Below are positions 1 through 64,000 of a stretch of 64,000 nt of DNA, in pieces. The notes beneath the pieces were generated by a model. The model made no database searches and was not told where the DNA came from. It worked only from the letters and a program-made list of their open reading frames with translations. Origin of the DNA: Morinoia aosen. Its lineage: Eukaryota > Arthropoda > Malacostraca > Amphipoda > Talitridae. Location of the stretch: NCBI GenBank assembly GCA_030386875.1, contig CM059576.1:11499058-11563057 (forward strand). The letters run 5' to 3'. A program made the translations under genes and the position numbers. Each line of letters starts with the position of its first letter. The first letter of the stretch is position 1.

Positions 1-287
1 TTGGACAAAGTATCGATTTTTTATTTTTGAAACTTTGATAGGTGATAGATTTTCAGAAGTTCTACAAACCATAAAATCAACGGCAGTCAAAACGATCAAG
101 TTTAGACGCAACTTTGGCCTGAACTTTTCCTAAAAATTTATAAGATTTCGGGAGGTCGCCCAAACATGTTTGTCCGGAGTTTTGGTGATACTTGAGAGTC
201 TGAGCAGTTGACATCTCGTTTGAAAAGCTTTGTCCTAGATGCACCATGTTTTAGAGAGTGCCATCTTTCAAAAATAATATTTTGTGA

Positions 288-352
288 AACTTTAAAGTTG
301 AAGTAAAAAAACGCGTTTTTTCAAAGGTCATTTTTGGCCGCCATTTCTGGCG
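288..352. other. Cluster of three dyads around ACGCGT (copy in P)
   Basis: Three perfect dyads in 65 bp: AACTTTAAAGTT (288-299; CAACTTTAAAGTTG, 14 bp, in most other units), AAAAAACGCGTTTTTT (306-321, 16 bp) and CGCCA-TTTC-TGGCG (339-352). Other copies: 5760-5824, 11222-11287, 16743-16807, 22232-22297, 27732-27797, 33233-33297, 38751-38816, 44269-44334, 49773-49838, 55313-55378, 60763-60828. The central palindrome is intact in nine of twelve; R2, R7 and R8 have ACGAGT. The third dyad is broken in R3 and R6 (TGGCA) and in R4 and R9 (TGACG). ACGCGT is a core known from cell-cycle promoter elements in fungi, but nothing here shows such a role. Confidence 0.75.
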
Positions 353-740
353 TTGTTTGATCGAGTGCAGATTTCAAACTTTGATACCATCTAGAATCAA
401 TCTTTTTCTCAAAGTTATCAAGTGTACAGACCATCATGAGCAATACTTTTCTCAAAAAAATGTCCCAAACACAGCCTCCAAAACCTCTAAAAATCGCCCC
501 AAACATGCGTGTGCAAAATGGGTGCGACTGACGAAAAACTTTATTTAACATTTTTTGCGAGTTTTGCGATCCTACATACGAAGAGTTTTTTGTGGAAAGA
601 TCGCTCGAAAATTTTTTTCGTTTTTTTGAATTTTGCGATTTTAACAGTAAAATGGCACATTCCATCTCCTCTAAGGCCCCCTTTTTCATGCCTCAGGATA
701 TCGAAATTCTCATGAGTGATGCGCCTAGGCGAGACCTTTC

Positions 741-754
741 GTTTGGTACCAAAC
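741..754. other. 14-bp perfect palindrome GTTTGGTACCAAAC (copy in P)
   Basis: Also at 6213-6226, 11676-11689, 28186-28199, 33687-33700, 39205-39218, 44723-44736, 55776-55789 and 61217-61230. It has one change in R3 (17196-17209, GGTACT) and is broken in the X-type units R4 and R9 (GGTACCACGC). It contains a KpnI site, so KpnI should cut most units about once here. Confidence 0.8.
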
Positions 755-1321
755 TCAAAGTTGTAGCTCAATAAACTTTTGAGAAAAATCCAAAAAACTA
801 AAATTGGGGCTAAAATCTCGTAAATTTTTCCAAGTCCTTAGAGGTGAAAAATTCGATCTCAATTTAAAGCCTCAATAAGGCTTTTCATGGATTTTCGACC
901 ATTCCCATGTCCAAGTAACGACAGAAAATTGATGTTTTCGATAGTTTCGTTAAGAAATGAGAGCTTGATAATGATTTTTTCGATTTCGAAGTTTTACACC
1001 TTTTATATCCATTTAGGGACTCGCAGCCATTTTTAGAGGCTTCGAGAGTGTTGCTAGAGTTGTTAAAAATATTTGTTCTCTTCGAAAGAAACTCGATAAC
1101 ACGTATTTTTGAGCACTCATTTTTCACTCAATTAGAGTATGCATCAATTTTTACTTTTTTGATGCGTTTATCGACGTCCTACGAAAAAATTTATGGAGAT
1201 GAAATGTGTTGCAAATTGCCGATTTACCCTATGGTAAAGTCTTTGCACCTCCGAAGGCTTGTTTGAAATAATTTTTTTCAAATCCAAAATTTCGAGTCGT
1301 AAAATTTACAAGTCCAGATGC

Positions 1322-4865: not shown

Positions 4866-5060
4866 TATTTGTGTATGTGTGTGTGTGTGTGTGGGAGTGT
4901 GTGTAGAGTGTGAGCGTTGGGATGATGGGGTGTGTGTGTGTTTGTGTGTGTGTGTTTGTGGTCCGCCCCCGGTCTGTGCTGGTTTTTGCGCGGGCGGACC
5001 CTCGCAGAGGTTCCGGAGGAAAAACTAAAAAAAAAATGCGCAAAAAGAAAAAAAAAAAAA
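4866..5060 (+). repeat. TG tract, hairpin B and A-tract module (R1)
   Basis: Order: interrupted (TG)n with a conserved GGGAGTGTGTGTA interruption; hairpin B with 9-bp arms GGTCCGCCC (4960-4968) and GGGCGGACC (4992-5000) and a 23-base loop; a small stem CCTC-GCA-GAGG; then an A-rich tract to 5060. R-type small stem but S-type A-tract spelling (ATGCGC), a recombinant. Open frames through this module (Cys/Val-rich on plus, Thr/His-rich on minus) are translations of the microsatellite. Confidence 0.87.
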
Positions 5061-5274
5061 TTTCAATAAATACTGGGTGGCCGCGCCGAGTAAGGAAGGA
5101 CTGTAGTGCAGACGTGTAGTGCGTGGGCGCATTCTCGGAAACGGCTGGTCCCAGCGCGCTCAAATTTGGTGAGCAGAAAGACCATCATCTAGACATTGTC
5201 TGTGCCAAGTTTCGTTTCAATCGTGCGAAAATTTACGATTTAATGAAGGTTCAATGGGGAAAAATAGCCAAAAA

Positions 5275-5500
5275 TGGGTTATTTTCAACTAGTTTGGGTG
5301 GGTATCCCCGTTGCATTTGAAGCGCTCAATTTTCAGTATGTTGCAGTTAAAGAGGGTCCGCAGAGGGTAGCGGCTCTGTTTTTTGCGATTTTTCGAAATA
5401 ATCGTCTTTTTTGCGCGTCAAAGTTGAGCAAATTTTTTTGAGCGATTTTTGCAGAAATTTTGACATTTTTTTTTGGACAAAGTATCGATTTTTAGTTTTT
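5275..5500 (+). other. R1-specific diverged block
   Basis: Where R2-R11 read TTTTTCAAACTGCTGCC and continue with a common 200-bp sequence, R1 has an unrelated-looking or strongly diverged sequence (GGTTATTTTCAACTAG, then GAGGGTCCGCAGAGGG). Similarity resumes at TTTTGACATTTTT and AACTTTGATAGGTG. The left edge of the window (unit P) begins in the same version, so P probably carried the same block. No gene content. Confidence 0.7.
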
Positions 5501-8500
5501 GAAACTTTGATAGGTGATAGATTTTCAGAAGTTCTACGCACCATAAAATCAACGGCAGTCAAAACGATCAAGTTTAGACGCAACTTTGGCCTGAACTTTT
5601 CCTAAAAATTTATAAGATTTCGGGAGGTCGTCCAAACATGTTTGTCCGGAGTTTTGGTGATACTTGAGAGTCTGAGCAGTTGACATCTCGTTTGAAAAGC
5701 TTTGTCCTAGATGCACCATGTTTTAGAGAGTGCCATCTTTCAAAAATAATATTTTTTGAAACTTTAAAGTTGAAGCAAAAAAACGCGTTTTTTCAAAGGT
5801 CATTTTTGGCCGCCATTTCTGGCGTTGTTTGATCGAGTGCAGATTTCAAACTTTGATACCATCTAGAATCAATCTTTTTCTCAAAGTTATCAAGTGTACA
5901 GACCATCATGAGCAATACTTTTCTCAAAAAAATGTCCCAAACACAGCCTCCAAAACCTCTAAAAATCGCCCCAAACATGCGTGTGCAAAATCGGTGCGAC
6001 TGACGAAAAACTTTATTTAACATTTTTTGCGAGTTTTGCGATCCTACATACGAAGAGTTTTTTGTGGAAAGATCGCTCGAAAATTTTTTTCGTTTTTTTG
6101 AATTTTGCGATTTTAACAGTAAAATGGCACATTCCATCTCCTCTAAGGCCCACTTTTTCATGCCTCAGGATATCGAAATTCTCATGAGTGATGCGCCTCG
6201 GCGAGACCTTTCGTTTGGTACCAAACTCAAAGTTGTAGCTCAATAAACTTTTGAGAAAAATCCAAAAAACTAAAATTGGGGCTAAAATCTCGTAAATTTT
6301 TCCAAGTCCATAGAGGTGAAAAATTCGATCTCAATTTAAGGCCTCAATAAGGCTTTTCATGGATTTTCGACCATTCCCATGTCCAAGTAACGACAGAAAA
6401 TTGATGTTTTCGATAGTTTCGTTAAGAAATGAGTGCTTGATAATGATTTTTTCGATTTCGAAGTTTTACACCTTTTATATCCATTTAGGGACTCGCAGCC
6501 ATTTTTCGAGGCTTCGAGAGTGTTGCTAGAGTTGTTAAAAATATTTGTTCTCTCTGAAAGAAACTCGATAACACGTATTTTTGAGCACTCATTTTTCACT
6601 CAATTAGAGTATGCATCAATTTTTACTATTTTGATGCGTTTATCGACGTCCTACGAAAAAATTTATTGAGATGAAATGTGTTGCAAATTGCCGATTTACC
6701 CTATGGTAAAGTCTTTGCACCTCCGAAGGCTTGTTTGAAATAATTTTTTTCAAATCCAAAATTTCGAGTCGTAAAATTTACAAGTCCAGATGCTTAGAGA
6801 CAAGGGGCCGATGACTGCCAGTCGACGTAATATTTGATATCGATTTTCTCGAAATGTTTCGATGTCTCAAACGTCAATTTTTGATGACTATAGCACATAA
6901 TTTGAATGTTAAGAAATCCATTGATTGATACATACCAGAAAATGAGCTCATTTTTTTCTCGTAAATCGATTTCGCTGTTAATTTGTGCGACGCTAGTCCT
7001 AAGAACCGCGATGCCATTTGTTTCAAACTTGAGGTAAACACTAATGTTGTGCGTTTCAATGAATGTGACCATGCTAAAAGTGTTGTGGTAGATGCTCTCA
7101 TATACATGCAAAGTGAGTGAAATTTTAAAACGCTCATTTCTGCTCACTTAGCGTTTTGAAGGGGAAGAAACTGTTGGCGACCGATGAAGAATAAGAGGGT
7201 TTGCAGAGTTGCCGGCTAGTGACTTTAGTTATGATACAATGATCATGCAAACAATATAATACTCGGCAAATGTCATCAATGACTCATCAAAATCGAGCGA
7301 TATCTCGTATTTGAGCGCTTTGATTGTGTGTCAAAATTCATGATGAGTTTTTATTGGCGTATTTTATTCATGGAATTCTGAAATATGCCTGCAAATGGTC
7401 GAGATACTGACACACACATTTCGTATTGTAAAAGGCTCATTAATAAACGAGCGTTTTGGAATAGAGCGTATCATGCTGGGGCTGTCGATCACGATATGGG
7501 GTACTGTGAGTTGATGTTTCACTCACTAATTTTGATGATTGAGAGAAGATATTGGAGGGTGTTTTGAGTCAGGAACTTTTGAGCTGTGCACTGAAACTTT
7601 GTTTGGGAATAAGTGCGATAACTCATTGATTCATATTCCCATCAGTTGCATATTTCGCTTCTAGGAAAAACTGAGTGTGAGTGAGTAGACACCGTTTCGA
7701 CGCTCACTCAGGGTTCATATTTTGTGAGTGTGTGTTCCTGATATGGATTGAATTTTTGAGAGGTTTTGCGGGTCTCAAATATTTTATTTACGGAAACTAA
7801 AATATTATTAGTGAAATATTTTCGAAAATTCGAAAATTCTCACTCGGACTTAGTTCAGGCTTCTATTTCGGTCAGTAATTGGGATTTAGGTGTGGTAACA
7901 CATGAAAATTGTTTCCGCTCATGAAATGCCTCATTTTGAGGAATTATTCTCTTAAATGGGGAATTTCACTCATTCAAACGTAGATGCTGTTGGTGAGTTC
8001 ATTGGGCGCTGCAAATCGGTCAAGCTATTGTGTTTGATGAGACGATGGATTTTGTAATGTTTTTCAGGACGAAAATTGACAAGTTGCGGGTTCAAATCCC
8101 AAAACATGAATTTATTTCGAAATTCGAAAAATCACTCATTTCGCTTAGTTCAGTGCCGAATTTTGCATGAAACTTGCATCATTGAGTACATAAGCGATTG
8201 CATTTCTTTCGTCTTAAGAAAGTGAGAATTGTGAAAGATATTGAATTTTTTTAATTTTCAATGATGATGCATCGGTGAACTAGGTCAGCAATTGAGTGAA
8301 ATTTTAATTAGGCATATCTTTCTTCGCATCGAAAGTAGAAGTCCGAAATTTTGATACAACGTGGACATCAATGAGTAGTGTCTATATTGACATTTTGAGA
8401 ACGGTCCAAATGATATTTTGGGGAAAATGAGTAATTTTCTAAAATTCCATACTTGTTCATTTTGACGATTTAGGGTACTTAGAAATAAGCTAGAAACCTT

Positions 8501-8963
8501 ATTTTGGGCTCAAATGAAGCGGAATCCGAAGCAGGGTCTGAATTATGGTGTTAAAAATTTTTTCATTCATTATTTTTTAATATATGGACAAATGAGTTTT
8601 TAAGAATGTTTTGGTCGTTATTTCGTCATTGGAACGTGTTTTGAACCGTTTTTAGGGCCAAATGGGACATTTCGAGTTGTGCAATGACCACGCATTTGAA
8701 AAATTTTGGAAAAAATTCGATAAAAGTCCACGGATATTAAAATGTTATTTTCAATGGAAAATCGCTAAAAAATGAGAATCGCTGCAGATACTCATTTGAT
8801 TACCATACAGACAGATACTTTTAGGGCCGTTAGTAAACTCTACGGGGTAAATACACTAAATATGCGTGAAAATGACACAAAAACTGAATTTTTCAGAGTT
8901 TGAAGGTGATTCGAAGTGAATGCAGTGTCCCTCGAGTTTTACTAATATTTGAACAACAATTAT

Positions 8964-9055
8964 GCCGCTCGGCGAGTTGCGTAGCGCTCGTCGAGCGGCC
9001 CCAAAACTCAAGCTCGATTTACCCAACCCCTGAATTTAACGCGCGACAGCGCGTT
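8964..9055. other. Hairpin A plus C module, copy 2
   Basis: Hairpin A identical to copy 1. Hairpin C is complete: AACGCGC 9038-9044, GACA, GCGCGTT 9049-9055. The sequence just upstream differs from copy 1 (TTTGAACAAC against TCTGAGTAAC) while the hairpin does not. Confidence 0.85.
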
Positions 9056-9980
9056 CCACGATTATTATATGTAAGGCGATGAACAGGTGTCGATGTTTTT
9101 CTTTTAAACGAGAATTATCTTTGGTTTTGATGTCGGATTGCGATTGTAGTTTCATTTAGTGATGATTTTTATTTTATTGATGATTTATTGCTGTGTTGTT
9201 TTTGATTATTGCTGAATTGGATTATCTAAGGGCTCTGCATGAATAACTGAGACGCCATCTGATGTATGGTGATTTACAACTAATTCACATCAATTATTCC
9301 GGGAAATAAATATATTTTAGATTTTTGGGGTTCATTTGAGAGTGTTGATAGTAATTGGATCTGTCATGAAGTTTGTGAGTATTTGGCGTTTTCTGTTAAA
9401 GGTTTCAAATGAATTTTCGGACCGAAAGGTTTGTATCGCTTTTGAAACTGAGTAATCTATTTTGATTTGAGAGGTGGCTATTTTTGTGGGTTATGGGAAG
9501 TCAAATTTTCGTGCGTCTGTGTTTGGTAAAATTTTGAATAGCTTGTAAAGAATGTATTTTTTTTAACCGCATGGATAAGTAAAATTTTGAATGAGGTTAT
9601 GTAATTCAACTTGGGACCAGGAATTGTTTAATATATTCTGGTCGAATGGACAATCATATTTACAGGGTTTTAAGTATGTTCGACCGGAGGTTAATTCTGG
9701 ATTTTATACTGAAATTTCCCTTTTTTCTTGACTCGGTTTAGAACATTGTTAAGCAACTCGCTCGTCGATCTTCATGTTAGGGATTTGGGTAATTTTAAGT
9801 TTTGATTTAGGTGAAAGTATTTCATTTTTTGAAGGATAGGTTAAATACCGTGGGGTAAATTGATACGAAACAGAGGTCGGACGCTAAGTTAGATGGAATA
9901 AAATAATAGTGGTCAAAAATTTAACAGTAAAATATGATAGAATAGGTTTTCTTATCCAGTCAGGATACAATAGCTTTAGC

Positions 9981-10048
9981 TGGTTTAGATTAGACTAGGT
10001 TGGGTTAGATTAGGCTAGGTTGGGTTAGATTAGTTTTGGTTGGGCTAA
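9981..10048 (+). repeat. 20-bp minisatellite, 3 copies (R2)
   Basis: Carries the private spellings AGGCTAGG and AGTTTTGGTTGGGCTAA; the AGTTTTGG variant recurs only in R11. Confidence 0.85.
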
Positions 10049-10322
10049 TAATATAAGACGTTTCCATCTGATTGATTTGTTAAGGACGAGTTATTCATAA
10101 AAAAAATATCGGTGAAATTATTTTTGACCTGTAAATATATGGTTGGTAAGTTTTATACATGGTATTTGTTAATGGTGTCGGAAAATGAATTGATGTTGGT
10201 GTTTGGAAGTTGAACATAGAAATTGAAGTGAAAGACAATGCACATGTCGGTTTGTGAAATGGGACGATGGTGTATCTGATTGTGTTGGATAATGGTGGTT
10301 ATTTTTTTAAGTGTGCCCTACA

Positions 10323-10523
10323 TGTGTTTGTGTGCATGTGTGTGTGTGTGTGTGGGAGTGTGTGTAAGAGTGTGAATGTTTGGGGTTATGAGGTGTTTGT
10401 GTGTGTTTGTGTGTGTGTGTGTGGTCCGCCCCCGGTCTTTGCTGGTTTTTGCGCGGGCGGACCCTCGCAGAGGTTCCGGAGGAAAACTAAAACAAAATAG
10501 CGCAAAAAAAAAAAAAAAAAAAA
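10323..10523 (+). repeat. TG tract, hairpin B and A-tract module (R2)
   Basis: Hairpin B at 10423-10463 with loop variant GGTCTTTGC (shared with R6). R-type small stem, A-tract spelling AAAACAAAATAGCGC. Confidence 0.87.
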
Positions 10524-10537
10524 TTTCATAAAAATCT

Positions 10538-10646
10538 GGGTGGCCGCGCCGAGTAAAGAAGGACTGTAGTGCGTACGTGTAGTGCATGGGCGCATTCTCG
10601 GAAACGGCTGGTCCCAGCGCGCTCAAATTTGGTGAGCAGAAAGACC
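10538..10646 (+). other. Conserved GC-richer block after the A-tract (representative, R2)
   Basis: About 110 bp from GGGTGGCCGCGCC to GAGCAGAAAG, present after every A-tract (for example 5075-5183 in R1). It is among the least variable stretches of the unit: R1 differs at a few bases (GCAGACG, GTGCGTGGG), R8 has AATTTAATGAG, R10 GTGCGTGGG. It contains the dyad GCTGG-TC-CCAGC and the palindrome CGTACG. No ORF or RNA family is recognised. Together with hairpin B and the A-tract it could mark the fossil end of an element that was in the founder unit, or a functional core. Confidence 0.6.
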
Positions 10647-11370
10647 TCCATCTCGACATTATCTGTGCCAAGTTTCGTTTCGATCGTGCGAAAATTTAAA
10701 ATTTAATGAAGGTTCAATGGTGAAAAATAGCCAAAAATTGCACTTTTTCAAACTGCTGCCAAACATACTTAGAATGCACCTAGGCGGCCTAAATTACAGG
10801 ATGTGGTAGATAAAATGTTGGAGTAGGTGCTGAGGTTGCCATTTTGCGATACGTTGATAAAAAGTATCCCTTTGAGCTCCTCAAAGTTGACCAAAAATTT
10901 TTTTTCGATTTCAGTCGAAATTTTGACATTTTTTATTGGACAAACTACGTGAGTTTGCAATTTCAAACTTTGATAGGTGATAGATTTTTGGAAGTTCTAC
11001 TCACCATAAAATCAGCAATTCTCAAAACGATTAAGTTTCGATGTAAATTTGGATTTAATTTTTTTCAAAAATTTATAAGATTTCGGGACGTCGTCCAAAC
11101 ATAGTCCTGAGTTTTGGGGACGATACCTGGAGGTCTCAAACCTTGAGGGCTTGTTCGAAAAGCTTTATAGTATTCCAAATATGTTTTACAGAGTGCCATC
11201 ATGGGTTACTTAGATTTTGTGCAACTTTAAAGTTGAAGTAAAAAAACGAGTTTTTTTAAAGGTCATTTTTGGCCGCCATTTCTGGCGTTGTTTGATCGAG
11301 TGGAGATTCCAAACTTTGATACCTCCGAGAATGAATCTTTTTCTCAAAGTTATCAAATTTACAGACCATC

Positions 11371-11736
11371 ATGAGCAATACTTTTTTTAAAAAACTGTCC
11401 CAAACACAGCCCCCAAAACCTCTGAAAATCTTTCCAAGCGTGCGTGTGGAAAATGGGTGCGACCCACGAAAAACTTTATTTAACATTTTTTGCGAGTTTT
11501 GCGATCCTACATACGAAGACTTTTTTGTGGAAAGATTGCCTGAAATTTTTTTTCGTTTTATTGAATTTTGCGATTTTAACAGTAAAATGGCACATTCCAT
11601 CTCCTCTAAGGCCCCCTTTTTCTTGCCTCAGGATATCGAAATTCTCATGAGTGATGCGCCTCAACGAGACCTTTCGTTTGGTACCAAACTCAAAGTTGTA
11701 GCTCTATATACTTTTGAGAAAAATCCAAAAAACTAA
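11371..11736 (+). other. Recurrent 90-121 codon plus-strand open frame (doubtful)
   Basis: Begins MSNTFFKKLSQTQPPKPLK. Comparable open frames at 16892, 27881, 33382, 44418, 55462 and 60912. In P, R1 and R7 a TGA in GACTGACG closes it early; R8 has TGC there. X-type blocks keep an open, related start (MSDAFLKKMSQTQ, at 22381 and inside 49883-50269) and share NGCDPRKTLFN. A minus-strand frame overlaps it in most copies and another plus frame is open within it, which argues against real coding. No domain recognised. Confidence 0.1.
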
Positions 11737-49073: not shown

Positions 49074-49589
49074 TTTCATAAAAATTCTGGGTGGCCGCGC
49101 CGAGTAAAGAAGGACTGTAGTGCGTACGTGTAGTGCATGGGCGCATTCTCGGAAACGGCTGGTCCCAGCGCGCTCAAATTTGGTGAGCAGAAAGGCCTCC
49201 ATCTAGACATTATCTGTGCCAAGTTTCGTTTCGATCGTGCGAAAATTTCAAATTTAATGAAGGTTCAATGGTGAAAAATAGCCAAAAATTGCACTTTTTC
49301 AAACTGCTGCCAAACATACTTAGAATGCACCTAGGCGGCTCAAATTACAGGATGTGGTAGATAAAATGTTGGAGTAGGTGCTGAGGTTGCCATTTTGCGA
49401 TACGTTGATAAAAAGTATCCCTTTGAGCTCCTCAAAGTTGACCAAAAATTTTTTTTCGATTTCAGTCGAAATTTTGACATTTTTTATTGGACAAACTACG
49501 TGAGTTTGCAATTTCAAACTTTGATAGGTGATAGATTTTTGAAAGTTCTACTCACCATAAAATCAGCAATTCTCAAAACGATCAAGTTT

Positions 49590-50240: not shown

Positions 50241-50664
50241 CTCAAAGTTGTAGCTCATCAAACTTTTGAAAAAAGTCCAAAAAACTAAAATTGGGGCTCA
50301 AATCTCGTGAATTTTTCTAAGTCCTTAGGGGTGAAATATTCGATCCCAATTTAAGGCCTTTAAAAGGCCTTTCATGGGTTTTCGACCACTCGCATGTCCA
50401 AGTAACGACAGGAAATTGATGTTTTCGTTAGTTTTGTTAAGAAATGAGTGCTTGATAATGCTTTTTTCGATTTCGAAGTTTTACTCATTTTATGTCCATT
50501 TAGGGACTCGCAGCTATTTTTCAAGGCTTCAACAGTGTTACTAGAGTTGTTAGAAATATTTGTTCTCTTCGAAGTGACCCCGATAACACGTATTTTTGAG
50601 CACTCATTTTTCACTCAATTAGAGTATGCATCAATTTTTACTTTTTTGATGCGTTTATCGACTT

Positions 50665-50900
50665 CCTACGGAAAATTTTATAGAGACGAAATGTCTTGCA
50701 AATTGCTGATTTACCCTTAGGTAAGGTTTTTTCACTTCCGACGGCGTTTTCAAAATTTTTTTTTAGATCCGGATATTCGAGTCCAAAAATTACCAAGTCC
50801 AAATGCCAATAGATATAAGGCCCCGATGACTCCAAGGTGACGCAATTATTGATATCGAATTTTCGAAAAGTTTTGGTGTCCCAAACGTTAGTTTTTGATG
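50665..50900 (+). other. R9-specific diverged stretch
   Basis: From CTTCCTACGGAAAATTTT to CCCAAACGTTAG the sequence departs from the version common to all other units, with many substitutions (for example GATCCGGATATTCGAG for GATCCAAAATTTCGAG). Typical sequence resumes at TTTTTGATGACTATATCAC. Confidence 0.7.
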
Positions 50901-52980
50901 ACTATATCACATTATTTTATTGTTAAGAAATCCATTGAATGATATATACCCGAAAATGAGCTCATTTTTTTCTCGTACATCGATTTCGCTGTTAATTTGT
51001 GCGACGCTAGTCCTAAGAACCGCGATGCCATTTGTTTTCAACTTGAGGTAAGCACCAATGTTGTGCGTTTCAATGAATGCGACCATGATAAAAGTGTTGT
51101 AGTAGATGCTCTCATATATATGCAAAGTGAGTGAAATTTTAAAACGCTCATTTCTGCTCACTTTGCGTTTTGAAGAGGAAGAAACTGTTGGCGAGTGTTG
51201 AAGAATGAGAGGGTTTGCAGAGTTGCCGGCTTTTGATTTTAGTTATGATACAATGAGCGTGCAAACAATATAATACTCGGCAAATGTAATCAATGACTCA
51301 TAAAAATCGAGCGATATCTCGTATTTGAGCTCTTTGATTGTGGATCAAAATTCACGATGAGTTTTTATTGGCGTATTTTATTCATGGAATTCTGAAATAT
51401 GCCTGCAAATGGTTGAGATACTGACTCACGCATTTCGTATTGGAAACGGCTCATCAACAAACGAGCGTTTTGGAATAGAGCGCATCATGCTGGGGCTGTC
51501 GATGACGATATGGGGTACTGTGAGTTGATTTTTCACTCATTAATTTTGATGATTGAGAGAAGATATTGGAGGGTCTTTTGAGTCAGGAACTTTTGAGCTG
51601 TGCACTGAAACTTTGCTTGGGAATAAGTACGAGAACTCATTGATTTACTCACTCATATTCCCATCAGTTGCACGTATCGTTTCTAGGAAAAACTGAGTGT
51701 GAGTGAGTAGACACTGTTTCGACGCTCACTCATGGCTCATATTTTGTGAGTGTGTGTTCCTGATATGGATTGAATTTTTGAGAGGTTTTGCGGATCTCAA
51801 ATATTTTATTTACGGGAACTAAAATATTATTACTGAAATATTTTCGAAAATTGGTAAATTCTCACTCGGACTTTGTTCAGGCTTCTATTTCGGTCAGAAA
51901 TTTGGACATAGAGGTGGTAACACATTTAAATTGTTTCCGCTCATGAAATGCCTCATTTTGAGGAATTATGATCTTAAATGGGGAATTTCACTCACTCAAA
52001 CGTAGATGCTGTTAGTGAGTTCATTGGGGGCTGCAAATCGGTCAAGCTATTGTATATGATGAGACAAAAGATTTTGTAATGTTTTTCGGGACGAAATTGA
52101 CAAGTTGCGTTTTCAAATCCCAAAACATGAATTTATTTAGAAATTCAGAAAATCACTCATTTCACATTCTTCAGTGCGGAAATTTGCATGATACGTGAGG
52201 ATGTAGATAAGTGATAGCATTTCTTTCGTCTTCAGCGAGTGGGAGTTATCTAAGATATTGTATTTTTTTCATTTTCAATGATGATGCATCGGTGAACTCG
52301 GTCAACAATTGAGTGAAATTTTAATTAGGCATATCTTTTTTTGCATTGAAGCTATATTTCCGATATTTTGATACAACGTAGATATAAATGAGTAGTGTCT
52401 ATATTGACATTTTGAGAACGGTGCAAATGATATTTTGGGGAAAATGAGTAATTTTCTAAAATTCCATACTTGTTTAATTTGACGATTTGGGGTACTAAGA
52501 AATAAGCTAGAAACTTCATTTTAGGCTCAAATGAAGCGGAATCCAAAGCAGGGTGTGAATTATGGTGTTACAATTTTTTTCATTCATTAATTTTTGATAT
52601 ATGGACAAATGAGTTTTTAAAAATGTTTTGGCCGTTTTTTCGTCATTGGAACGTGTTTTGAACCGTTTTTGGGGCCAAATGGGACATTTCGACTTGTGCA
52701 ATGACCACGCATTTGAAAAAATTAGGAAAAATTCGATAAAAGTCCGTCGGATATTAAAATGTTATTTTTAATGGAAATACGCTAAAAAATGAGAATCGCT
52801 GCAACTACCGATTTGATTACCATACAGACAGATACTTTTAGGGCCGTTAGTAAACTCTACGGGGTGAATACGCTAAAAATGCGTAAAAATGACACAAAAA
52901 TTGTATTTTTCAGATTTTGGAAGTGATTCGAAGTAAATGCAGTGTCCCTCGAGTTAGACTAATATCTGAGCAACAATTAT

Positions 52981-53072
52981 GCCGCTCGGCGAGTTGCGTA
53001 GCGCTCGTCGAGCGGCCCCAAAACTTAAGCTCGATTTACTCGACCCCTGAATTTAACGCGCGACAGCGCGTT
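52981..53072. other. Hairpin A plus C module, copy 10
   Basis: Hairpin A identical; hairpin C complete. Confidence 0.85.
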
Positions 53073-53990
53073 CCCCAATGATTATCTGTAAGGAGCTGAA
53101 CAGGTGTCGATATTTTTCTATTAAACGAGAATTATCTTTGGTTTTGATGCCGGATGGCGGTTGTAGTTTCATTTAGTGATTTTTATTTTATTGATGATTT
53201 ATTGCTGTTTTGTTTTTGATTGTTGCGGGATTGGATTATTTAAAGGCTCTGCATGAATAACTGAGACGCCATCTGATGTGTGGTGATTTACAGCTAATTC
53301 ACATCATTTATTCCTGGAAACAAATATATTTTAGATTTTTAGGGTTCATTTGAGAATATTGATAATAATTGAATTTGTCATGAAGTTGGTGAATATTTGG
53401 CGATTTCTGTTGAAGGTTTCAAATGAATTTTCAGTACAAAAGGTTAGTATCGCCTGTGAAAGTGAGTATTCTATTCTGATTTGAGAGGTGGCTAATTTTT
53501 GTGGGTTATGGGAAGCCAAATTTTCCTACGTCTGGGTTTGGTGAAATTTTGAATAGCTTTTAAAGAATGTGTTTTTTTACCCACATGTGTAAGTATAATT
53601 TTGAATGAGGCTTATGTAGTTCAACTTGGGACTAGGAATTGTTCAATATATTCTGGTCGAATGGACAATCATATTTATATGGTCTTAAGTATGTTCGACC
53701 GGAGGTAATTTCTGGATTTTATACTGAAATTTCTCTTTCTTCTTGACTCGGTTTAGAATATTGTGAAGCAACTTGCAGTCGATCTTCATGTAAGGGATTT
53801 AGGTAATTTTAAGTTTTGATTTAGGTGAAGGGATTCCATTTTTTGCAGCATAGGTTAAATTCCGTTGGGTAAATTGATACGAAACAGAGGTTGGACGTCA
53901 AGTTAGATGGAATAAAATAAGAGGTCAAAAATTCAACAATAAAATATGATAGAATAGGTTTTCTTTTCTACTCAGGATAAAATAGCTTTG

Positions 53991-54140
53991 GTTGGTTCAG
54001 AATAGACTAGGTTGTTTTAGATTAGACTAGGTTGGGTTAGATTAGTTTAGGTTGGGTTAGATTAGTTTAGGTTGGGTTAGATTAGTTTAGGTTGGGTTAG
54101 ATTAGACTTTTTGGGTTAGGTTAGTTTAGGTTGGGTTAAT
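53991..54140 (+). repeat. 20-bp minisatellite, 7 copies (R10)
   Basis: The longest tract. The first copy is degenerate (GGTTGTTTTAG) and the sixth is the ACTTTTTGGGTTAGG variant shared with R6. Confidence 0.88.
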
Positions 54141-54418
54141 AATATAAGACGTTTCCATCTGATTGATTTGTTAGGGATGTGTTATTCATAAAAAGAGGTC
54201 GGTGAAATGATTTTTGACATGTAAATATTTGGTTAGGTAAACTTTATACTTGATATTTGTTAATGGTATCGGAAAATGAATTGATGTTGGTGTTTGAAAG
54301 TTAAACATAGTGCATAGAGTGGAATAAATTGTACATATCGTTTTGTGACTTGAGACGATGGTGTATCTGATTGTGTTGGATAATTGTGGTTATTTTTATA
54401 AGTGTGCGCGACATGTTG

Positions 54419-54614
54419 GTGTGTATGTGTGTGTGTGTGTGTGTGTGGGAGTGTGTGTAAGAGTTTGAAGGTGTGGGGTTATGAGGTGTTTGTGTGTGTT
54501 TGTGTGTGGGTGTGGTCCGCCCCCGGTCTGTGCTGGTTTTTGCGCGGGCGGACCTCTTTTTGAGGTTCCGAAGGAAAACTAAAAAAAAAATGCGCAAAAA
54601 AAAAAAAAAAAAAA
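54419..54614 (+). repeat. TG tract, hairpin B and A-tract module (R10)
   Basis: Hairpin B at 54514-54554, S type. TG part ends GTGTGGGTGTGG, a private change. Confidence 0.87.
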
Positions 54615-56356
54615 TTTCATAAAAATCTGGGTGGCCGCGCCGAGTAAAGAAGGACTGTAGTGCGTACGTGTAGTGCGTGGGCGCATTCTCGGAAACGGCT
54701 GGTCCCAGCGCGCTCAAATTTGGTGAGCAGAAAGACCCCCATCTCGACATTATCTGTGCCAAGTTTCGTTTCGATCGTGCGAAAATTTTAAATTTAATGA
54801 AGGTTCAATGGGGAAAAATGGCCAAAAATTGCAATTTTTCAAACTGCTGCCAAACATACTTAGAATGCACTTAGGTGGCTCAAATTACAGGATGTGGTAG
54901 ACGAAATGTTGAAGTAGATGCTCAGCTTGCCATTTTGCGATACGTTAATAAAAAGTATCCCTCTGGGCTCCTCAAAGTTGACCAAAAATTATTTTTCGAT
55001 TTTAGTCGAAATTTTGACATTTTTTATTGAACAAACTACGCAAGTTTGCAAACTCAAACTTTGATAGGTGATAGATTTTCGAGAGTTCTACTCACTATAA
55101 AATCAGCGGTTCTCAAAACGATTGAGTTTCGATGTAAATTTGGATTTAATTTTTTTCAAAAATTAATAAGATTTCGGGACGTCGTCCAAACATAGTCCTG
55201 AGTTTTGGGGACGATACCTGGAGGTCTCAAACCTTGAGGGCTTGTTCGAAAAGCTTTGTAGTATTTCAAATATGTTTTACAGAGTGCCATCATGGGTTAC
55301 TTAGATTTTGTGCAACTTTAAAGTTGAAGTAAAAAAACGCGTTTTTTTAAAGGTCATTTTTGGCCGCCATTTCTGGCGTTGTTTAATCGAGTAGAGATTC
55401 CAAACTTTGATACCTCTGAGAATGAATCTTTTTCTCAAAGTTATCAAATTTACAGACCATCATGAGCAATACTTTTTTTAAAAAACTGTCCCAAACACAG
55501 CCCCCAAAACCTCTGAAAATCTTTCCAAGCGTGCGTGTGGAAAATGGGTGCGACCCACGAAAAACTTTATTTAACATTTTTTGCGAGTTTTGCAGTCCTA
55601 CATACGAAGACTTTTTTGTGGAAAGATCGCTTGAAAATTTTTTTCGTTTTATTGAATTTTGCGATTTCAACAGTAAAATCCACTTTCCATCTCCTCTAAG
55701 GCCCCTTTTTTCATGCCTCAGGATATCGAAATTTTAATGAGTGATGCGCCTTGGCGAGACCTTTCGTTTGGTACCAAACTCAAAGTTGTAGCTCAATAAA
55801 CTTTTGAGTAAAATCCAAAAAACTAAAATTGGGGCCAAAATCTCGTGAATTTTTCTAAGTCCTTGGAGTGAAATATTCGATCCCAATTTAAGGCCTCTAT
55901 AAGGCTTTTCATGGATTTTCGACCACACCCATGTTCAAGTAACGACAGAAAATTGATGTTTTCGATAGTTTTGTTAAGAAATGAGTGCTTGATAATGATT
56001 TTTTCGATTTCGAAGTTTTACTCAGTTTAAATCCATTTAGGGACTCGCAGCCATTTTTCGAGGCTTCGAGAGTGTTGCTAGAGTTGTTAAAAATATTTGT
56101 TCTCTTCGAAAGAAACTCGATAACACGTATTTTTGAGCACTCATTTTTCACTCAATTAGAGTATGCATCAATTTTTACTTTTTTGATGCGTTTATCGACG
56201 TCCTACGAAAAAATTTATAGAGATGAAATGTGTTGCAAATTGCCGATTTACCCTATGGTAAAGTCTTTGCACCTCCGAAGGCTTGTTTGAAATAATTTTT
56301 TTCAAATCCAAAATTTCGAGTCGTAAAATTTACAAGTCCAGATGCTTAGAGACAAG

Positions 56357-56376
56357 ACGTCTGTTCGTACCCCTGA
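56357..56376 (+). other. 20-base replacement private to R10
   Basis: After GAGACAAG the usual GGGCCG is replaced by twenty bases beginning ACGTCTGTTCG and ending CCCCTGA, a net gain of 14. This accounts for R10 having the largest hairpin B to A distance (4016 bp). Confidence 0.85.
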
Positions 56377-58528
56377 ATGACTGCAAGTCGACGTAATATT
56401 TGATATCGATTTTCTCTAAATGTTTCGATGTTTCAAACGTCAATTTTTGATGACTATAGCACATTATTTGAATGTTAAGAAATCCATTGATTGATACATA
56501 CCAGAAAATGAGCTCATTTTTTTCTCGTACATCGATTTCGCTGTTAATTTGTGCGACGCTAGTCCTATGAACCGCGATGCCATTTGTTTCAAACTTGAGG
56601 TAAGCACTAATGTTGTTCGTTTCAATGTATGCCACCAAGATAAAAGTCTTGTAATAGATGCTCTCATATACATGCAAAGTGAGTGAAATTTGAAAACGCT
56701 CATTTCTGCTCACTTAGCGTTTTGAAGGGGAAGAAACTGTTGGCGACCGATGAAGAATAAGAGGGTTTGCAGAGTTGCCGGCTAGTGACTTTAGTTATGA
56801 TACAATGATCATGCAAACAAGATAATAATCGGGAAATGTCATCAATGACTCATCAAAACCGAGTGATATCTCGTATTTGAGCTATTTGATTGTGGATCAA
56901 AATTCATGATGAGTTTTTATTGGCGTATTTTATTCATGGAATTCTGAAATATGTCTGCAAATGGTCGAGATACTGATACACACATTTCGCATTGTAAACG
57001 GTTCATTAACAAACGAGCGTTTTGGAATAGAGTGCATCATGCTGGGGCTGTCGATCACTATATGGGGTACTGTGAGTTGATGTTTCACTCATAAATTTTG
57101 ATGATTGAGAGAAGATATTGGAGGGTCTTTTGAGTCAGGAACTTTTGAGCTGTGCACTGAAACTTTGTTTGGGAATAAGTGCGATAACTCATTGATTCAT
57201 ATTCCCATCAGTTGCATATTTCGCTTCTAGGAAAAACTGAGTGTGAGTGAGTAGACACCGTTTCGACGCTCACTCAGGGTTCATATTTTGTGAGTGGGTG
57301 TTCCTGATATGGATTGAATTTTTGAGAGGTTTTGCGGGTCTCAAATATTTTATTTACGGAAACTAAAATATTATTGCTGAAATATTTTCGAAAATTCGAA
57401 AACTCTCACTCGGACTTAGTTCAGGCTTCTATTTCGGTCAGTAATTGGGATTTAGGTGTGGTAACACATGAAAATTGTTTCCGCTCATGAAATGCCTCAT
57501 TTTGAGGAATTATTCTCTTAAATGGGGAATTTCACTCATTCAAACGTAGATGCTGTTGGTGAGTTCATTGGGCACTGCAAATCGGTCAAGCTATTGTGTT
57601 TGATGAGACGATGGATTTTGTAATGTTTTTCGGGATGAAAATTGACAAGTTGCGGGTTCAAATCCCAAAACATGAAATTATTTCGAAATTCGAAAAATCA
57701 CTCATTTCGCTTAGTTCAGTGCCGAATTTTGCATGAAACTTGCATCATTGAGTACATAAGCGATAGCATTTCTTTCGTCTTAAGAAAGTGAGAATTGTGA
57801 AAGATATTGAAATTTTTTAATTTTCAATGATGATGCATCGGTGAACTAGGTCAGCAATTGAGTGAAATTTTAATTAGGCATATCTTTCTTTGCATCGAAG
57901 GTAGAAGTCCGAAATTTTGATACAACGTAGACATCAATGAGTAGTGTCTATATTGACATTTTGAGAACGGTACGAATGATATTTTGGGGAAAATGAGTAA
58001 TTTTCTAAAATTCCATACTTGTTTATTTTGACGATTTAGGGTACTTAGAAATAAGCTAGAAACTTCATTTTAGGCTCAAATGAAGCAGAATCCAAAGCAG
58101 GGTGTGAATTAAGGTGGTAAAATTTTTTTTATTCAATACTTTTTAAAATATGGACAAATGAGTTTTTACAACCGTTTTGGCTGTTATTTCGTTATAGGAA
58201 CTTGTTTTGAACCGTTTTTGGGGCCAAATGGGAAATTTAGACTTGTGCAATGACCACGCATTTGAAAAATTTAGGAAAAAATTCGATAAAAGTCCACGGA
58301 TATTAAAATGTTATTTTCAATGAAAAAACGCTAAAAAATGAGAATCGCTGCAGCTACCAATTTGATTACTATACAGACAGGTACTTTTAGGGGCGTTGGT
58401 AAACTCTACGGGGTAAATACGCTAAAATGCGTGAAAATGACACAATAATTGTATTTTTCAGAGTTTGAAGGTGATTCGAAGTTAATGCAGTGTCCCTCGA
58501 GTTTGACTAATATCATAGCAACAACTAT

Positions 58529-58620
58529 GCCGCTCGGCGAGTTGCGTAGCGCTCGTCGAGCGGCCCAAAAACTCAAGCTCGATTTACTCAACCCCTGAAT
58601 TTACCGCGCGACAGCGCGTT
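58529..58620. other. Hairpin A plus C module, copy 11
   Basis: Hairpin A identical. Hairpin C reads ACCGCGC-GACA-GCGCGTT, with one internal mismatch. Confidence 0.85.
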
Positions 58621-59545
58621 CCACCATAATTTTCTGTAAGGAGATGAACAGGTGTCGACGTTTTTCTATTAAACGAGAATTATCTTTGGTTTTGATGTCG
58701 GATTGCGATTGTAGTTTCATTTAGTGATGATTTTCATTTTATTGATGATTTATTGCTGTTTTGTTTTTGATTGTTGCGGGAATAGATAATTTAATGGCTC
58801 TGCATGAATAACTGAGACGCCTTCTGATGTATGGTGGTTTACAGCTCATTCACATCATTTATTCCTGGAAACAAATATATTTTAGATTTTTGATGTTCAT
58901 TTGAAGGTATTGATAGTAATTGGATCTGTCATGAAGTTGGTGAATGTTGGGCGGTTTCTGATGAAGGTTTCAAATGAATTTTCAGAACGAAAGGTTAGTA
59001 TCGCCTTTGAAAGTGAGTAATCTATTTTGATTTGAGAGGTGGCTATTTTTGTGGGTTATGGGAAGCGAAATTTTCGTGCGTCTAGGTTTGGTGAAATTTT
59101 AAATAGCTTTTAAAGAATGTATTTTTTTAACCGCATGTATAAGTAACATTTTAAATGAGGCTTATGTAATTCAACTTGGGATTAGGAATTGTTTAATATA
59201 TTCTGGTCGAATTGACAATCATATTGATAGGGTTTTGAGTATGTTCGAATGGAGGTTAATTCTGGATTTTATACTGAAATTTCCCTTTCTTCTTGACTCG
59301 GTTTATAATATTGTGAAGCAACTTGCAGTCGATCTTCATATCAGGGATTTAGGTAATTTTGATTTTTGATTTAGATGAAAGTGTTTAATTTTTTTGCAGG
59401 ATAGGTTAAATTCCGTTGGGTAAATTGATACGAAACAGAGGTCGGACGCTAAGTTAGATGGAATAAAATAATAGTGGTCAAAAATTCAACAGTAAAATAT
59501 GATAGAATAGGTTTTCTTATCCAGTCAGGATACAATAGCTTTAGC

Positions 59546-59593
59546 TGGTTTAGATTAGACTAGGTTGGGTTAGATTAGTTTTGGTTGGGTTAA
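59546..59593 (+). repeat. 20-bp minisatellite, 2 copies (R11)
   Basis: The shortest tract together with R1. Left border GCTTTAGCTGG and the AGTTTTGG variant are those of R2. Confidence 0.85.
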
Positions 59594-59868
59594 TAATATA
59601 AGACGTTTCCATCTGATTGATTTGTCAAGGATGAGTTATTCATAAAAAAAATATCGGTGAAATTATTTTTGACCTGTAAATATATGGTTGGGGAGTTTTA
59701 TACATGGTATTTGTTAATGGTATCGGAAAATGAATTGATGTTGGTGTTTGAAAGTTCAACATAGAGCATAGAGTGAAGGAAAATGCAGATATCGTTTTGT
59801 TATTTGAGACGATGGTGTATCTGATTGTGTTGGATAATTGTGGTTATTTTTAGAAGTGTGCACTGCAT

Positions 59869-60064
59869 GTGTGTGTGTATGTGTGTGTCTGTGTGTGGGA
59901 GTGTGTGTAAGAGTGTGAATGTTTGGGGTTATGAGGTGTTTGTGTGTGTGTGTGTGTGTGTGTGGTCCGCCCCCGGTCTGTGCTGGTTTTTGCGCGGGCG
60001 GACCCTCGCAGAGGTTCCGGAGGAAAACTAAAACAAAATAGCGCAAAAAAAAAAAAAAAAAAAA
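59869..60064 (+). repeat. TG tract, hairpin B and A-tract module (R11)
   Basis: Hairpin B at 59964-60004, R type. The second TG run is uninterrupted here, where other units have a TTTG break. Confidence 0.87.
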
Positions 60065-63000
60065 TTTCATAAAAATCTGGGTGGCCGCGCCGAGTAAAGA
60101 AGGACTGTAGTGCGTACGTGTAGTGCATGGGCGCATTCTCGGAAACGGCTGGTCCCAGCGCGCTCAAATTTGGTGAGCAGAAAGACCTCCATCTAGACAT
60201 TATCTGTGCCAAGTTTCGTTTCGATCGTGCGAAAATTTCAAATTTAATGAAGGTTCAATGGTGAAAAATAGCCAAAAATTGCACTTTTTCAAACTGCTGC
60301 CAAACATACTTAGAATGCACCTAGGCGGCTCAAATTACAGGATGTGGTAGATAAAATGTTGGAGTAGGTGCTGAGGTTGCCATTTTGCGATACGTTGATA
60401 AAAAGTATCCCTTTGAGCTCCTCAAAGTTGACCAAAAATTTTTTTTCGATTTCAGTCGAAATTTTGACATTTTTTATTGGACAAACTACGTGAGTTTGCA
60501 ATTTCAAACTTTGATAGGTGATAGATTTTTGAAAGTTCTACTCACTATAAAATCAGCGGTTCTCAAAACGATTAAGTTTCGATGTAAATTTGGATTTAAT
60601 TTTTTTCAAAAATTTATAAGATTTCGGGACGTCGTCCAAACATAGTCCTGAGTTTTGGGGACGATACCTGGAGGTCTCAAACCTTGAGGGCTTGTTCGAA
60701 AAGCTTTGCAGTATTTCAAATATGTTTTACAGAGTGCCATCATAAGTAACTTAGATTTTGTGCAACTTTAAAGTTGAAGTAAAAAAACGCGTTTTTTTAA
60801 AGGTCATTTTTGGCCGCCATTTCTGGCGTTGTTTGATCGAGTGGAGATTCCAAACTTTGATACCTCCGAGAATGAATCTTTTTCTCAAAGTTATCAAATT
60901 TACAGACCATCATGAGCAATACTTTTTTTAAAAAACTGTCCCAAACACAGCCCCCCAAACCTCTGAAAATCTTTCCAAGCGTGCGTGTGGAAAATGGGTG
61001 CGACCCACGAAAAACTTTATTTAACATTTTTTGCGAGTTTTGCGGTCCTACATACGAAGACTTTTTTGTGGAAAGATTGCTCGGAATTTTTTTTCGTTTT
61101 ATTGAATTTTGCGATTTTAACAATAAAATGGAACATTCCATCTCCTCTAAGGCCCTCTTTTTCTTGCCTCAGGATATCGAAATTCTCATGAGTGATGCGC
61201 CTCAGCGAGACCTTTCGTTTGGTACCAAACTCAAAGTTGTAGCTCTGAATACTTTTGAGAAAAATCCAAAAAACTAAAAATGGGGCTCATATCTCGTGAA
61301 TTTTTCTAAGTCCATAGAGGTGAAAAATTCGGTCTCAATTTAAGGCCTCATTAGGGCTTTTCATGGATTTTCGACCACTCCCATGTCCAAGTAACGACAG
61401 AAAATTGATGTTTTCGATAGTTTCGTTTATAAATGAGCGTTTGGTGATGATTTTTCCGATTTCGAAGTTTTACTCATTTTACATCCATTTAGGGACACGC
61501 AGCAATTTTTAAAGGCATCGAGAGTGTTGCTAGAGTTGTGAAAAATATTTGTTCTTTTCGAAGAGACCCCGATAAAACGTATTTTTGAGCACTCATTTTT
61601 CACTCAATTAGAGTATGCATCAATTTTTACTTTTTTGATGCGTTTATCGACGTCGTACGAAAAAATTTATAGAGATGAAATGTGTTGCAAATTGCCGATT
61701 TACCCTTAGGTAAAGTCTTTGCACCTTCGACGGCTCATTTGAAATTTTTTTTTCAGATCCAAAATTTCGAGTCGTCAAATTTACAAGTCCAGATGCTTAG
61801 AAACAATGGGCCGAATACTGCAAGTCGACGCAATATTTGATATCGATTTTCTCGAAAAGTTTCAGTGTATCAAACGTCAATTTTTGATGACTATATCACA
61901 TTATTTTAATGTTAAGAAATCCATTGAATGATATATACCAGAAAATGAGCTCATTTTTTTCTCGTACATCGATTTCGCTGTTAATTTGTGCGATGCTAGT
62001 CCTAAGAACCGCGATGCCATTTGTTTCAAACTTGAGGTAAGCACTATTGTTGTTCGTTTCAATGAATGCCGCCATGATGAAAGTGTTGTAATAGATGCTC
62101 TCATATATATGCAAAGTGAGTGAAATTTTAAAACGCTCATTTCTGCTCACTTAGCGTTTTGAAGAGGAAGAAACTGTTGGCGACTGATGAAGAATAAGAG
62201 GGTTTGCAGAGTTGCCGGCTAGTGATTTTAGTTATGATACAATGAGCATGCAAACAATATAATACTCGGGAAATGTCATCAATGACTCATCAAAATCGAG
62301 CGATATCTCGTATATGAGCTCTTTGATTGTGGGTCAAAATTCATGATGAGTTTTTATTGGCGTATTTTATTCATGGAATTCTGAAATATGCCTGCAAATG
62401 GTCGAGATACTGATACACACATTTCGTATTGTAAACGGCTCATTAATAAACGAGCGTTTTGGAATAGAGCGCATCATGCTGGGGCTGTCGATCACGATAT
62501 GGGGTACTGTGAGTTGATGTTTCACTCATTAATTTTGATGATTGAGAGAAGATATTGGAGGTTCTTTTGAGTCAGGAACTTTTGAGCTGTGCACTGAAAC
62601 TTTGTTTGGGAATAAAAACGATAACTCATTGATTCATATTCCCATCAGTTGCATGTTTCGCTTTTAGGAAAAACTGAGTGTGAGTGAGTAAACACCGTTT
62701 CGAAGCTCACTCAGGGTTCATATTTTATGAGTGTGTGTTCCTGATATTGATTGAATTTTTGAGAGGTTTTGCGGATCTCAAATATTTTATTTACGGAAAC
62801 TAAAATATTATTACTGAAATATTTCCGAAAATTCGTAAATTCTCACTCGGACTTTGTTCAGGCTTCTATTTCGGTCAGTGATTGGGATATAGGTGTGGTA
62901 ACCAATGAAAATTGTTTCTGCTCATGAAATGCCTAATTTTGAGGAATTATGATCTTAAATGGGGAATTTCACTCATTCAAACGTAGATGCTATTGGTGAG

Positions 63001-63964
63001 TTCATTGGGGGCTGCAAATCGGTCAAGCTATTGTGTTTGATAACACGATGGATTTTGTAATGTTTTGCGGGATGAAAATTGACAAGTTGCGGGTTCGAAT
63101 CCCAAAACATGAATTTATTTCGAAATTCGAAAAATCACTCATTTCACATAGTTCAGTGCCTAAATTTGCATGAAACGTGCGTCATGATGTAGAGAAGCGA
63201 TAGCATTTCTTTCGTCTTCAGCAAGTGGGAGTTATCTAAGATATTGATGTTTTTCATTTTCAATGATGATGCATCGGTGAACTCGGTCTACAATTAAGTG
63301 AAATTTTAATTAGGCATATCTTTTTCTGCATTGAAGCTATATGTCCGATATTTTGATACAACGTAGATATGAATGAGTAGTGACTATATTGACATTTTGA
63401 GAACGGTGCAAATGATAGTTTGGGGAAAATGAGTAATTTTCTAAAATTCCATACTTGTTTAATTTGACGATTTGGGGTACTTAGAAATAAGCTAGAAACT
63501 TCATTTTGGGCTCAAATGAAGCGGAATCCAAAGCAGGGTGTGAATTATGGTGTTAAAATTATTTTCTTTCATTAATTTTCGATATATGGACAAATGAGTT
63601 TTTAAAAATGTTTTGGCCGTTATTTCGTCATTGGAACGTGTTTTGAACAGTTTATGGGGCCAAATGGGACATTTCGAGTTGTGCAATGACCACGCATTTT
63701 AAGAATTTATGAAAAAATTCGATAAAAGTCCACGGATATTAAAATGTTATTTTCAATGGAAATACGCTAAAAAATGAGAATCGCTGCAACTACCAATTTG
63801 ATTACCATACAGACAGATACTTTTAGGGCCGTTAGTAAACTCTACGGGGTGAATACGCTAAAAATGCATAAAAATGACACAAAAATTGTATTTTTCAGAG
63901 TTTGGAAGTGATTGAAGTTAATGCAGTGTCCCTTGAGTTAGACTAATATCTGAGCAACAATTAT

Positions 63965-64000
63965 GCCGCTCGGCGAGTTGCGTAGCGCTCGTCGAGCGGC
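63965..64000. other. Hairpin A, copy 12 (C beyond window)
   Basis: Hairpin A identical; the window ends at the last base of the stem. Confidence 0.85.
63966..64000 (+). repeat. Start of next megasatellite unit Q (stub)
   Basis: Thirty-five bases of a twelfth hairpin A, identical to the other eleven over the hairpin. It shows that the array continues past the right edge. Confidence 0.9.

Follow-up and report, generated by a model that had tools for sequence, protein, structure and literature searches.

The 64,000-nucleotide stretch of DNA studied here, called the window below, comes from the genome of the talitrid amphipod Morinoia aosen (assembly GCA_030386875.1, contig CM059576.1, positions 11,499,058 to 11,563,057 of the forward strand). 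It consists of one uninterrupted head-to-tail array (1..64000, + strand) of 5.5-kb elements of a family named F1. F1 and a related family, F2, are also found as solitary insertions scattered over the genome and bounded by exact ends; the unit is therefore a transposable element, one able to build arrays. Its insertion target is X-T-N-X'^N-T, in which X and X' are complementary to each other and ^ marks the cut. The unit is probably a non-autonomous rolling-circle transposon of the HUH type, which would recognise X-T-N-X' in single-stranded DNA and would give rise to arrays by using its own joint as a target.

The array in the window

The window covers 11.50-11.56 Mb of a 121-Mb contig, in a genome of 1.99 Gb assembled in 29 contigs. 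Repeated 20-mers at spacings near 5.5 kb cover 91.9% of its length, inverted 20-mer matches number 5, and the array runs on through the 10 kb fetched beyond each end. A hairpin named A is found at 11 sites spaced by 5,450-5,540 bp, giving ten complete units, all in the same orientation, and an internal hairpin, B, has 11 copies at spacings of 5,462-5,548. With their 5' ends located, the complete elements 1 to 10 lie on the + strand at 4983..10445, 10446..15964, 15965..21452, 21453..26953, 26954..32455, 32456..37974, 37975..43492 (element 7, the reference copy), 43493..48996, 48997..54536, and 54537..59986; partial elements on the same strand, at 1-4982 and 59987-64000, leave the array open at both ends. 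A preliminary description had presented the window as a non-coding megasatellite with a 5.5-kb unit, open at both ends, which the 20-mer spacings, the ten units, and the flanks bear out. It had also counted twelve hairpin-A landmarks; their near-equal spacing and common orientation hold, and the number found is 11.

Pairwise identity among the ten complete units ranges from 0.862 to 0.993. When the units are cut at hairpin A and aligned, 41 sites distinguish units 6 and 7: the first 1,200 columns hold 40 of these, and the other 4,400 columns hold 1. Neighbouring units are thus a patchwork of near-identical and diverged stretches, a pattern expected from gene conversion or unequal exchange.

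Element ends and dispersed copies

At array edges and in a single copy at C4:79.77 Mb, F1 starts with TTTTTGCGCGGGCGGACC and finishes with GGTCCGCCCCCGGTCTGTGCTGG, with unrelated DNA outside. More generally, single copies and array edges start with TTTTTGCGCGGGCGGACC and finish with GGTCCGCCCCCGGTCTNTG-CTGG. In the reference copy, the 5' terminus TTTTTGCGC and its subterminal inverted repeat GGGCGGACC occupy 37975..37992 (+), and the 3' terminus, composed of the inverted repeat GGTCCGCCC, CCGGTCTGTG, and the terminal CTGG, occupies 43470..43492 (+). The distance to the nearest end is 9 nt for GGGCGGACC (5') and 14 nt for GGTCCGCCC (3'), and F2 has a similar layout. Within arrays the ends meet as ...GTGCTGG|TTTTTGCG..., and the 3' terminus plus the next 18 nt is hairpin A, whose two arms are supplied by adjacent elements, each contributing a subterminal inverted repeat. 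Hairpin A is therefore the joint of one element's 3' end with the next element's 5' end, and not a landmark inside a satellite monomer. The 3' ends that are not in joints read CTGG in 27 of 28 cases and CCGG in the other, with a T at +2 in 27 of 28. A looser 3' pattern was uninformative (641 matches, against 705 for the reversed control). Of a 3' palindrome such as that of Helentrons and Helitron2, inspection by eye showed only a possible 4-bp stem, CCGG-N6-CTGG with one G-T pair.

Genome-wide, a 44-mer of the unit has 759 exact copies; of the 100 places listed, one is a single copy and the others belong to arrays on contigs C2, C3, and C4, in either orientation. The joint into an F1 element has 1,034 exact copies, which occupy at least eight arrays on three contigs among the first 100 listed, so that the window is not a local artefact of assembly. 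The F2 family is about 5.8 kb long and about 75% identical to F1 in the aligned parts; its 5' end is TTTCTGYGCGCCCGGCGGA and its 3' end is closely similar to that of F1. Joints into an F2 element number 335 exact copies, indicating that F2 also forms arrays. F2 5' ends outside joints number 94, and of 20 that were followed to the 3' side, 16 proved to be single copies. Two single full-length F2 copies, at unrelated sites on different contigs, are 87% alike. In all, lone dispersed insertions with exact ends were encountered twice for F1 and 28 times for F2 among the loci read. Supposing that every exact 5' end belongs to a full-length unit, the two families together amount to at least about 8 Mb (1,034 x 5.5 kb + 429 x 5.8 kb).

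These dispersed copies bear on the simplest alternative, namely a long satellite of the ordinary kind, maintained by unequal crossing-over, whose single copies would be broken-off or dispersed units. The patchwork between neighbours and the internal GT and 20-bp repeats described below would suit it. However, units stop at the same base pair left and right although the surrounding DNA is unrelated, a constrained motif precedes them, and there is an empty site; on account of these exact ends an ordinary satellite was rejected as very improbable. Unequal exchange does not explain the exact ends but probably enlarges arrays. The preliminary view of a satellite of unrecognised family was thus right about the tandem array, and the window is indeed a tandem head-to-tail non-coding array, but it overlooked that the unit is a transposable element with dispersed single copies.

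Two further observations concern copies outside the window. At C19:53510500-53512300, the 3' ends of two elements point towards one another, with about 700 bp of palindromic host sequence between them, an arrangement repeated 0.9 Mb away (C19:54.398 Mb). Assembly gaps of 500 N stand at two array edges (C3:12.028 Mb and C3:7.792 Mb; loci L001 and L009), so array lengths are not fully resolved and may be underestimates.

The target site

The left flanks of the 94 F2 5' ends, which are all those lacking a T at -6, end in CTAG (26), CTGG (20), CTTG (16), TTTA (11), CTCG (8), or TTCA (6), and more rarely in ATTT (3), ATAT (2), ATGG (1), or TGGA (1). Positions -4 and -1 are complementary in 93 of the 94 (C..G 70, T..A 18, A..T 5), against a mean of 56.6 and a maximum of 70 in shuffles. 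A T is found at -3 in 93, and the T and the complementary pair together in 92. Some of the 20 CTGG entries may be mutated array joints; when all 20 are removed, the pair is present in 73 of 74. Eight of nine F1 left ends fit as well.

For 30 single insertions, both flanks could be read. All have a T at -3, a T at +2, and a -4/-1 pair; 27 have a T at +1 and 26 a purine at +3. Of 231 position pairs, the one that covaries is -4/-1 (z 6.2; the next reaches 2.6). Away from the site, by comparison, 1,110 of 44,026 flank words (2.5%) read X-T-N-X'-N-T. Since 27 of these 30 insertions were drawn from the 94 F2 ends, the pair in them is not independent of that set, and since the T..A and A..T classes were favoured, class counts among the 30 are not frequencies. 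Rows dropped comprise 4 of 20 loci (three with an array joint at the 3' side and one without a 3' end in the stretch), C6_6502, where no 3' end was found, and C20_65127, which has only a 5' flank. C2_19951 was removed by a filter, as its host flank starts with TTTTTG; its flanks, CTTG | TTTTTGTAGC, fit the rule too.

A fixed core or a duplication of CTGG was rejected as an explanation, since left cores vary while the right one stays constant. The same evidence bears on an element that forms circles and is mobilised by a recombinase of the tyrosine or serine type (Crypton-, DIRS-, or IS607-like); the CTGG core of the circle would recombine with a short matching chromosomal core and leave tandem units that share the core. 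Such an element would account for the one core common to tandem units, the lack of duplication, the inverted repeats near the ends, and the core-bounded arrays. Yet the left tetranucleotide varies (CTAG, CTTG, TTTA, TTCA, ATTT) against a nearly constant right CTGG. The latter is present in every one of the 30 single insertions, and the left-hand pair is T..A in 15 of these, so the cores need not match, and the covarying pair lies within the target rather than between target and element. With differing left and right cores, and with no gene of the Crypton or DIRS kind found in the unit, a recombinase is an unlikely agent.

Empty sites and target-site duplication

Element-free paralogs were sought with nine joined flanks, two of which gave scored matches across the joint (40 of 3,067 candidates were scored and 20 of 59 matches fetched). 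At C8:38.40 Mb, two paralogs, 87% identical overall, match the joined flanks across the joint, TTCA included. They look like copies of each other and are counted as one empty site. As they carry TTCA, the motif at this locus is host DNA, and nothing was duplicated or lost upon insertion. The cut can be placed only within X'^NT, the T being common to host and element. A cut between N and X' was rejected, as the right joint at C8:38.40 Mb would then differ.

Inspection by eye of the 30 flank pairs revealed no target-site duplication save two look-alikes, a 6-bp ACATAT at C13:22.26 Mb and a weaker AAATTT/GAATTT at C12:98.83 Mb, both of which are held for chance. Precise insertion without duplication is a feature of the Helitron superfamily.

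Possible routes from single copies to arrays

The joint CTGG^TT itself meets the target rule, so every end-to-end joint is a fresh target. New copies could thus land between old ones, giving head-to-tail growth, and unequal exchange and gene conversion would later enlarge and homogenise the arrays. Mixed arrays are consistent with such a seeding role of the joint. At C4:78.85-78.91 Mb, two F2 elements are followed by six F1 and again two F2; at C3:23.07-23.16 Mb, sixteen F1 stand between F2 elements; and at C3:7.90 Mb there is one switch from F1 to F2. All of these switches fall exactly at element ends.

Alternatively, the element would still be of the rolling-circle kind, but arrays would be rolling-circle concatemers inserted whole rather than products of repeated insertion into joints. 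A pure F2 array on C9 (C9:39.19-39.32 Mb) fits this, with 23 spacings of 5,777-6,001 bp, a single CTAG flank on its left, and a single CTGG|TTC end on its right, and tandem Helitrons of plants and bats have been tied to rolling-circle replication (PMC5876387, PMC12628747). By contrast, insertion into a joint already present is required to explain the F1 blocks within F2 arrays, where the switches fall exactly at element ends. Whole-concatemer insertion is a serious possibility, to which we give roughly one chance in three as the route to arrays.

A proposed rolling-circle mechanism and its enzyme

The absence of duplication, the host tetranucleotide kept on the left, and the related CTGG on the right fit single-strand transposition by HUH enzymes, of which such end and target features are typical. 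We propose that a trans-acting enzyme makes a nick in one strand at the element's 5' end, and that this strand is copied or peeled off as far as the terminal CTGG. It would then be joined into a single-stranded target directly after X-T-N-X' and before N-T, without target-site duplication. X and X' would form one Watson-Crick pair folded inside the single-stranded substrate. Among systems with HUH enzymes, IS91, IS608, and Helitrons are described as making no target duplication (PMC5876387), and viral HUH Rep proteins as needing an intramolecular Watson-Crick pair, of any identity, in single-stranded DNA (PMC9973303).

The genome holds a possible source of enzyme: 150 Helitron Rep domains were scored, and long open Rep/Helicase frames are present. 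The two Rep/Helicase loci that were read have a canonical Helitron 3' end, with a hairpin, then CTAG, then TT, and no internal similarity to F1 or F2. Two canonical Helitrons with this kind of 3' end (loci L123-L126; C21:18.34 Mb and C25:13.19 Mb) each have a long open Rep/Helicase frame and are 97.7% identical over 4.43 kb with different upstream DNA; of the two loci read, Pfam was run on one.

Relation to known families

Non-coding derivatives of the Helentron/HINE/DINE-1 group and Helitron2 share with F1 and F2 asymmetric subterminal inverted repeats, tandem repeats, a microsatellite, and a T-rich target (PMC4067079, PMC5148889). The T at +1 (27 of 30) and +2 (30 of 30) overlaps with this T-rich preference. 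Several differences can be noted, however. First, the published Helentron/Helitron2 target is TT or TTTT^T/C, whereas here it is X-T-N-X'^N-T, with a different left half. Second, the 3' inverted repeat lies 14 nt from the end here, compared with about 20-60 in the published accounts. Third, the CTGG end is of the canonical CTRR type. Finally, the elements described here are 5.5-5.8 kb long, non-coding, and found in arrays with more than 1,000 complete-unit joints. Non-autonomous Helitron2/Helentron elements are nevertheless the nearest known kind, though their published targets differ.

Canonical Helitrons, exemplified by Helraiser and also found in this genome, resemble F1 and F2 in a CTRR-type 3' end, no duplication, head-to-tail joints, and internal CTNG ends. 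By contrast, F1 and F2 lack the 3' hairpin, as judged by eye, lack a 5' TC (the 5' end is TTTTTG or TTTCTG), do not insert at A^T (the left flank ends in G, A, or T), and carry inverted repeats; of the canonical hallmarks, they have only the CTRR end. The sources give A^T as the insertion site of canonical Helitrons and TT as that of Helentrons, while the fungal FoHeli1/2 insert after TNAT with unpaired ends (PMC5148889).

The bacterial IS91 family offers a third comparison. IS91 and IS801 share with F1 and F2 a tetranucleotide target, a matching tetranucleotide at one element end, and one-ended products. The reported targets of IS801 are GAAC, GGAC, CAAG, and CGAC (PMC3189936). Read on the opposite strand, each of the four has T as its second base, and the ends are complementary in three; the IS801 fragment border GCAC, which is not among the listed targets, also fits the rule. 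On the other hand, IS801 is bacterial, encodes its transposase, and is described as having no proper inverted repeats. G..C pairs occur among its targets and in 0 of 94 ends here. No transposase of the IS91 kind is apparent in the unit, with no long frame and no Pfam match in the frames tested.

One-ended events may also have occurred here. Within its first 700 nt, the reference element has a single CTNGNT site, an internal CTGG at 38065..38068 (+) that is followed by GT, and three mini-units of 94-95 nt elsewhere run from the true 5' end to this same CTGG and are followed by the 5' end of a full element. They resemble one-ended products of IS801, which stop at internal tetranucleotides resembling its end (PMC3189936), and Helraiser insertions with a deleted right terminus, some of which end at CTTG (PMC4778049). 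Simple nested insertion was rejected as their origin, since the expected right half has 0 exact matches.

As for tandem organisation, tandem Helitrons have been reported in bat, Drosophila, rice, and maize, and centromeric plant Helitrons form head-to-tail arrays of several to several hundred repeats (Xiong et al. 2016, cited in PMC12628747). The plant units are described as truncated, many arrays having multiple 5' ends but a single 3' end, whereas both ends are present in ten of ten complete units here.

Taken together, F1 and F2 are best regarded as working like rolling-circle transposons, and a partner enzyme would be needed to assign them to a named branch. A broader proposal is that one target rule of some rolling-circle HUH transposases, a pair of any identity in X-T-N-X', is common to IS801/IS91 and F1/F2, that the CTNG ends of Helitrons are a special case of it, and that use of the element's own joint as a target makes the megasatellite. 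This wider proposal is tentative, and we put its chances somewhat below even. In the accessible literature, consulted mostly without subscription papers, no complementary-pair target rule for Helitrons or IS91 was found.

Several observations count against the interpretation as a whole. Two of the 94 F2 ends break the target rule, and one of nine F1 ends (TTAT) departs from it. At C6:88.65 Mb, 17 of the 18 fetched paralogs are longer by one base at the joint than the joined flanks, and 15 of these are identical there; the 18th has a deletion, and this locus does not confirm loss-free insertion. The internal CTGG is seen only as an end and not as a target, the right half of the nested insertion being unmatched. 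Among the two of 150 scored loci that were read, there is no Rep/Helicase element with F1 or F2 termini. In viral Rep proteins, the reported pair spans the cut (-4/+1), whereas both partners precede it here; the likeness therefore holds in principle and not in detail. As for the universal pair rule, neither TNAT of FoHeli1/2 nor CGAC of IS801 fits it.

Coding content and internal features

The preliminary description saw no recognisable gene, and the searches made since agree. The longest open frame of one unit has 103 amino acids, against a shuffle mean of 119. Rfam, at two thresholds, gave no match, and a tRNA search found none. Pfam searches were empty, both with eight of the longer frames from the unit and its relative and with two of the four open reading frames listed for the window. 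A distant blastn of one unit against phages and plasmids, and exact patterns run against viral and prokaryotic contigs, gave no result. In a literature search, no megasatellite of this size fitted by title and abstract.

Hairpin B (41953..41988, + strand, in the reference copy) is identical in 11 of 11 window copies. In four F2 loci (L011, L017, L041, and L042), it carries five changes, one pair of which is compensatory (G-C to T-A, positions 8/29, by eye); hairpin B may be a functional structure. A 20-bp minisatellite with the consensus GGTTGGGTTAGATTAGTTTA lies at 42966..43092 (+), with a copy number that differs among elements, and a GT microsatellite at 43370..43470 (+) lies immediately 5' of the 3' terminus. 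The 20-bp repeat, GGTTGGGTTAGATTAG at window 42966-43092 and equivalents, is similar to TTAGG, the arthropod telomere repeat; the similarity may be due to chance or to capture. In an F2 stretch at C3:23.16-23.18 Mb (L016/L017), a 241-codon repeated frame of LASIHITVFIPLWR-like peptides is a minisatellite within the element.

In their first 10 kb, which were read, the two shortest contigs, C28 (561 kb) and C29 (63 kb), carry mitochondrial genes together with tandem repeats rich in AT. Named by eye under the invertebrate code, the genes are ND2, COX1, COX2, ATP6, and COX3, with ND5 and ND4 on the opposite strand. An ND3-like frame between ND2 and COX1 points to an odd or mis-assembled mitochondrial genome. 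On this gene content alone, the host would be judged probably an arthropod.

Significance

About a hundred readable insertions provide a natural record of target choice by what is probably a eukaryotic rolling-circle transposase, and they predict a structural feature, namely one base pair folded in single-stranded DNA. They also point to a concrete way in which a transposon can become a megasatellite, in that its end-to-end joint matches the preferred target and arrays can seed themselves. If the pair rule is general, the insertions in this genome would be its fossil record, and the same rule would be what makes a transposon into a megasatellite.

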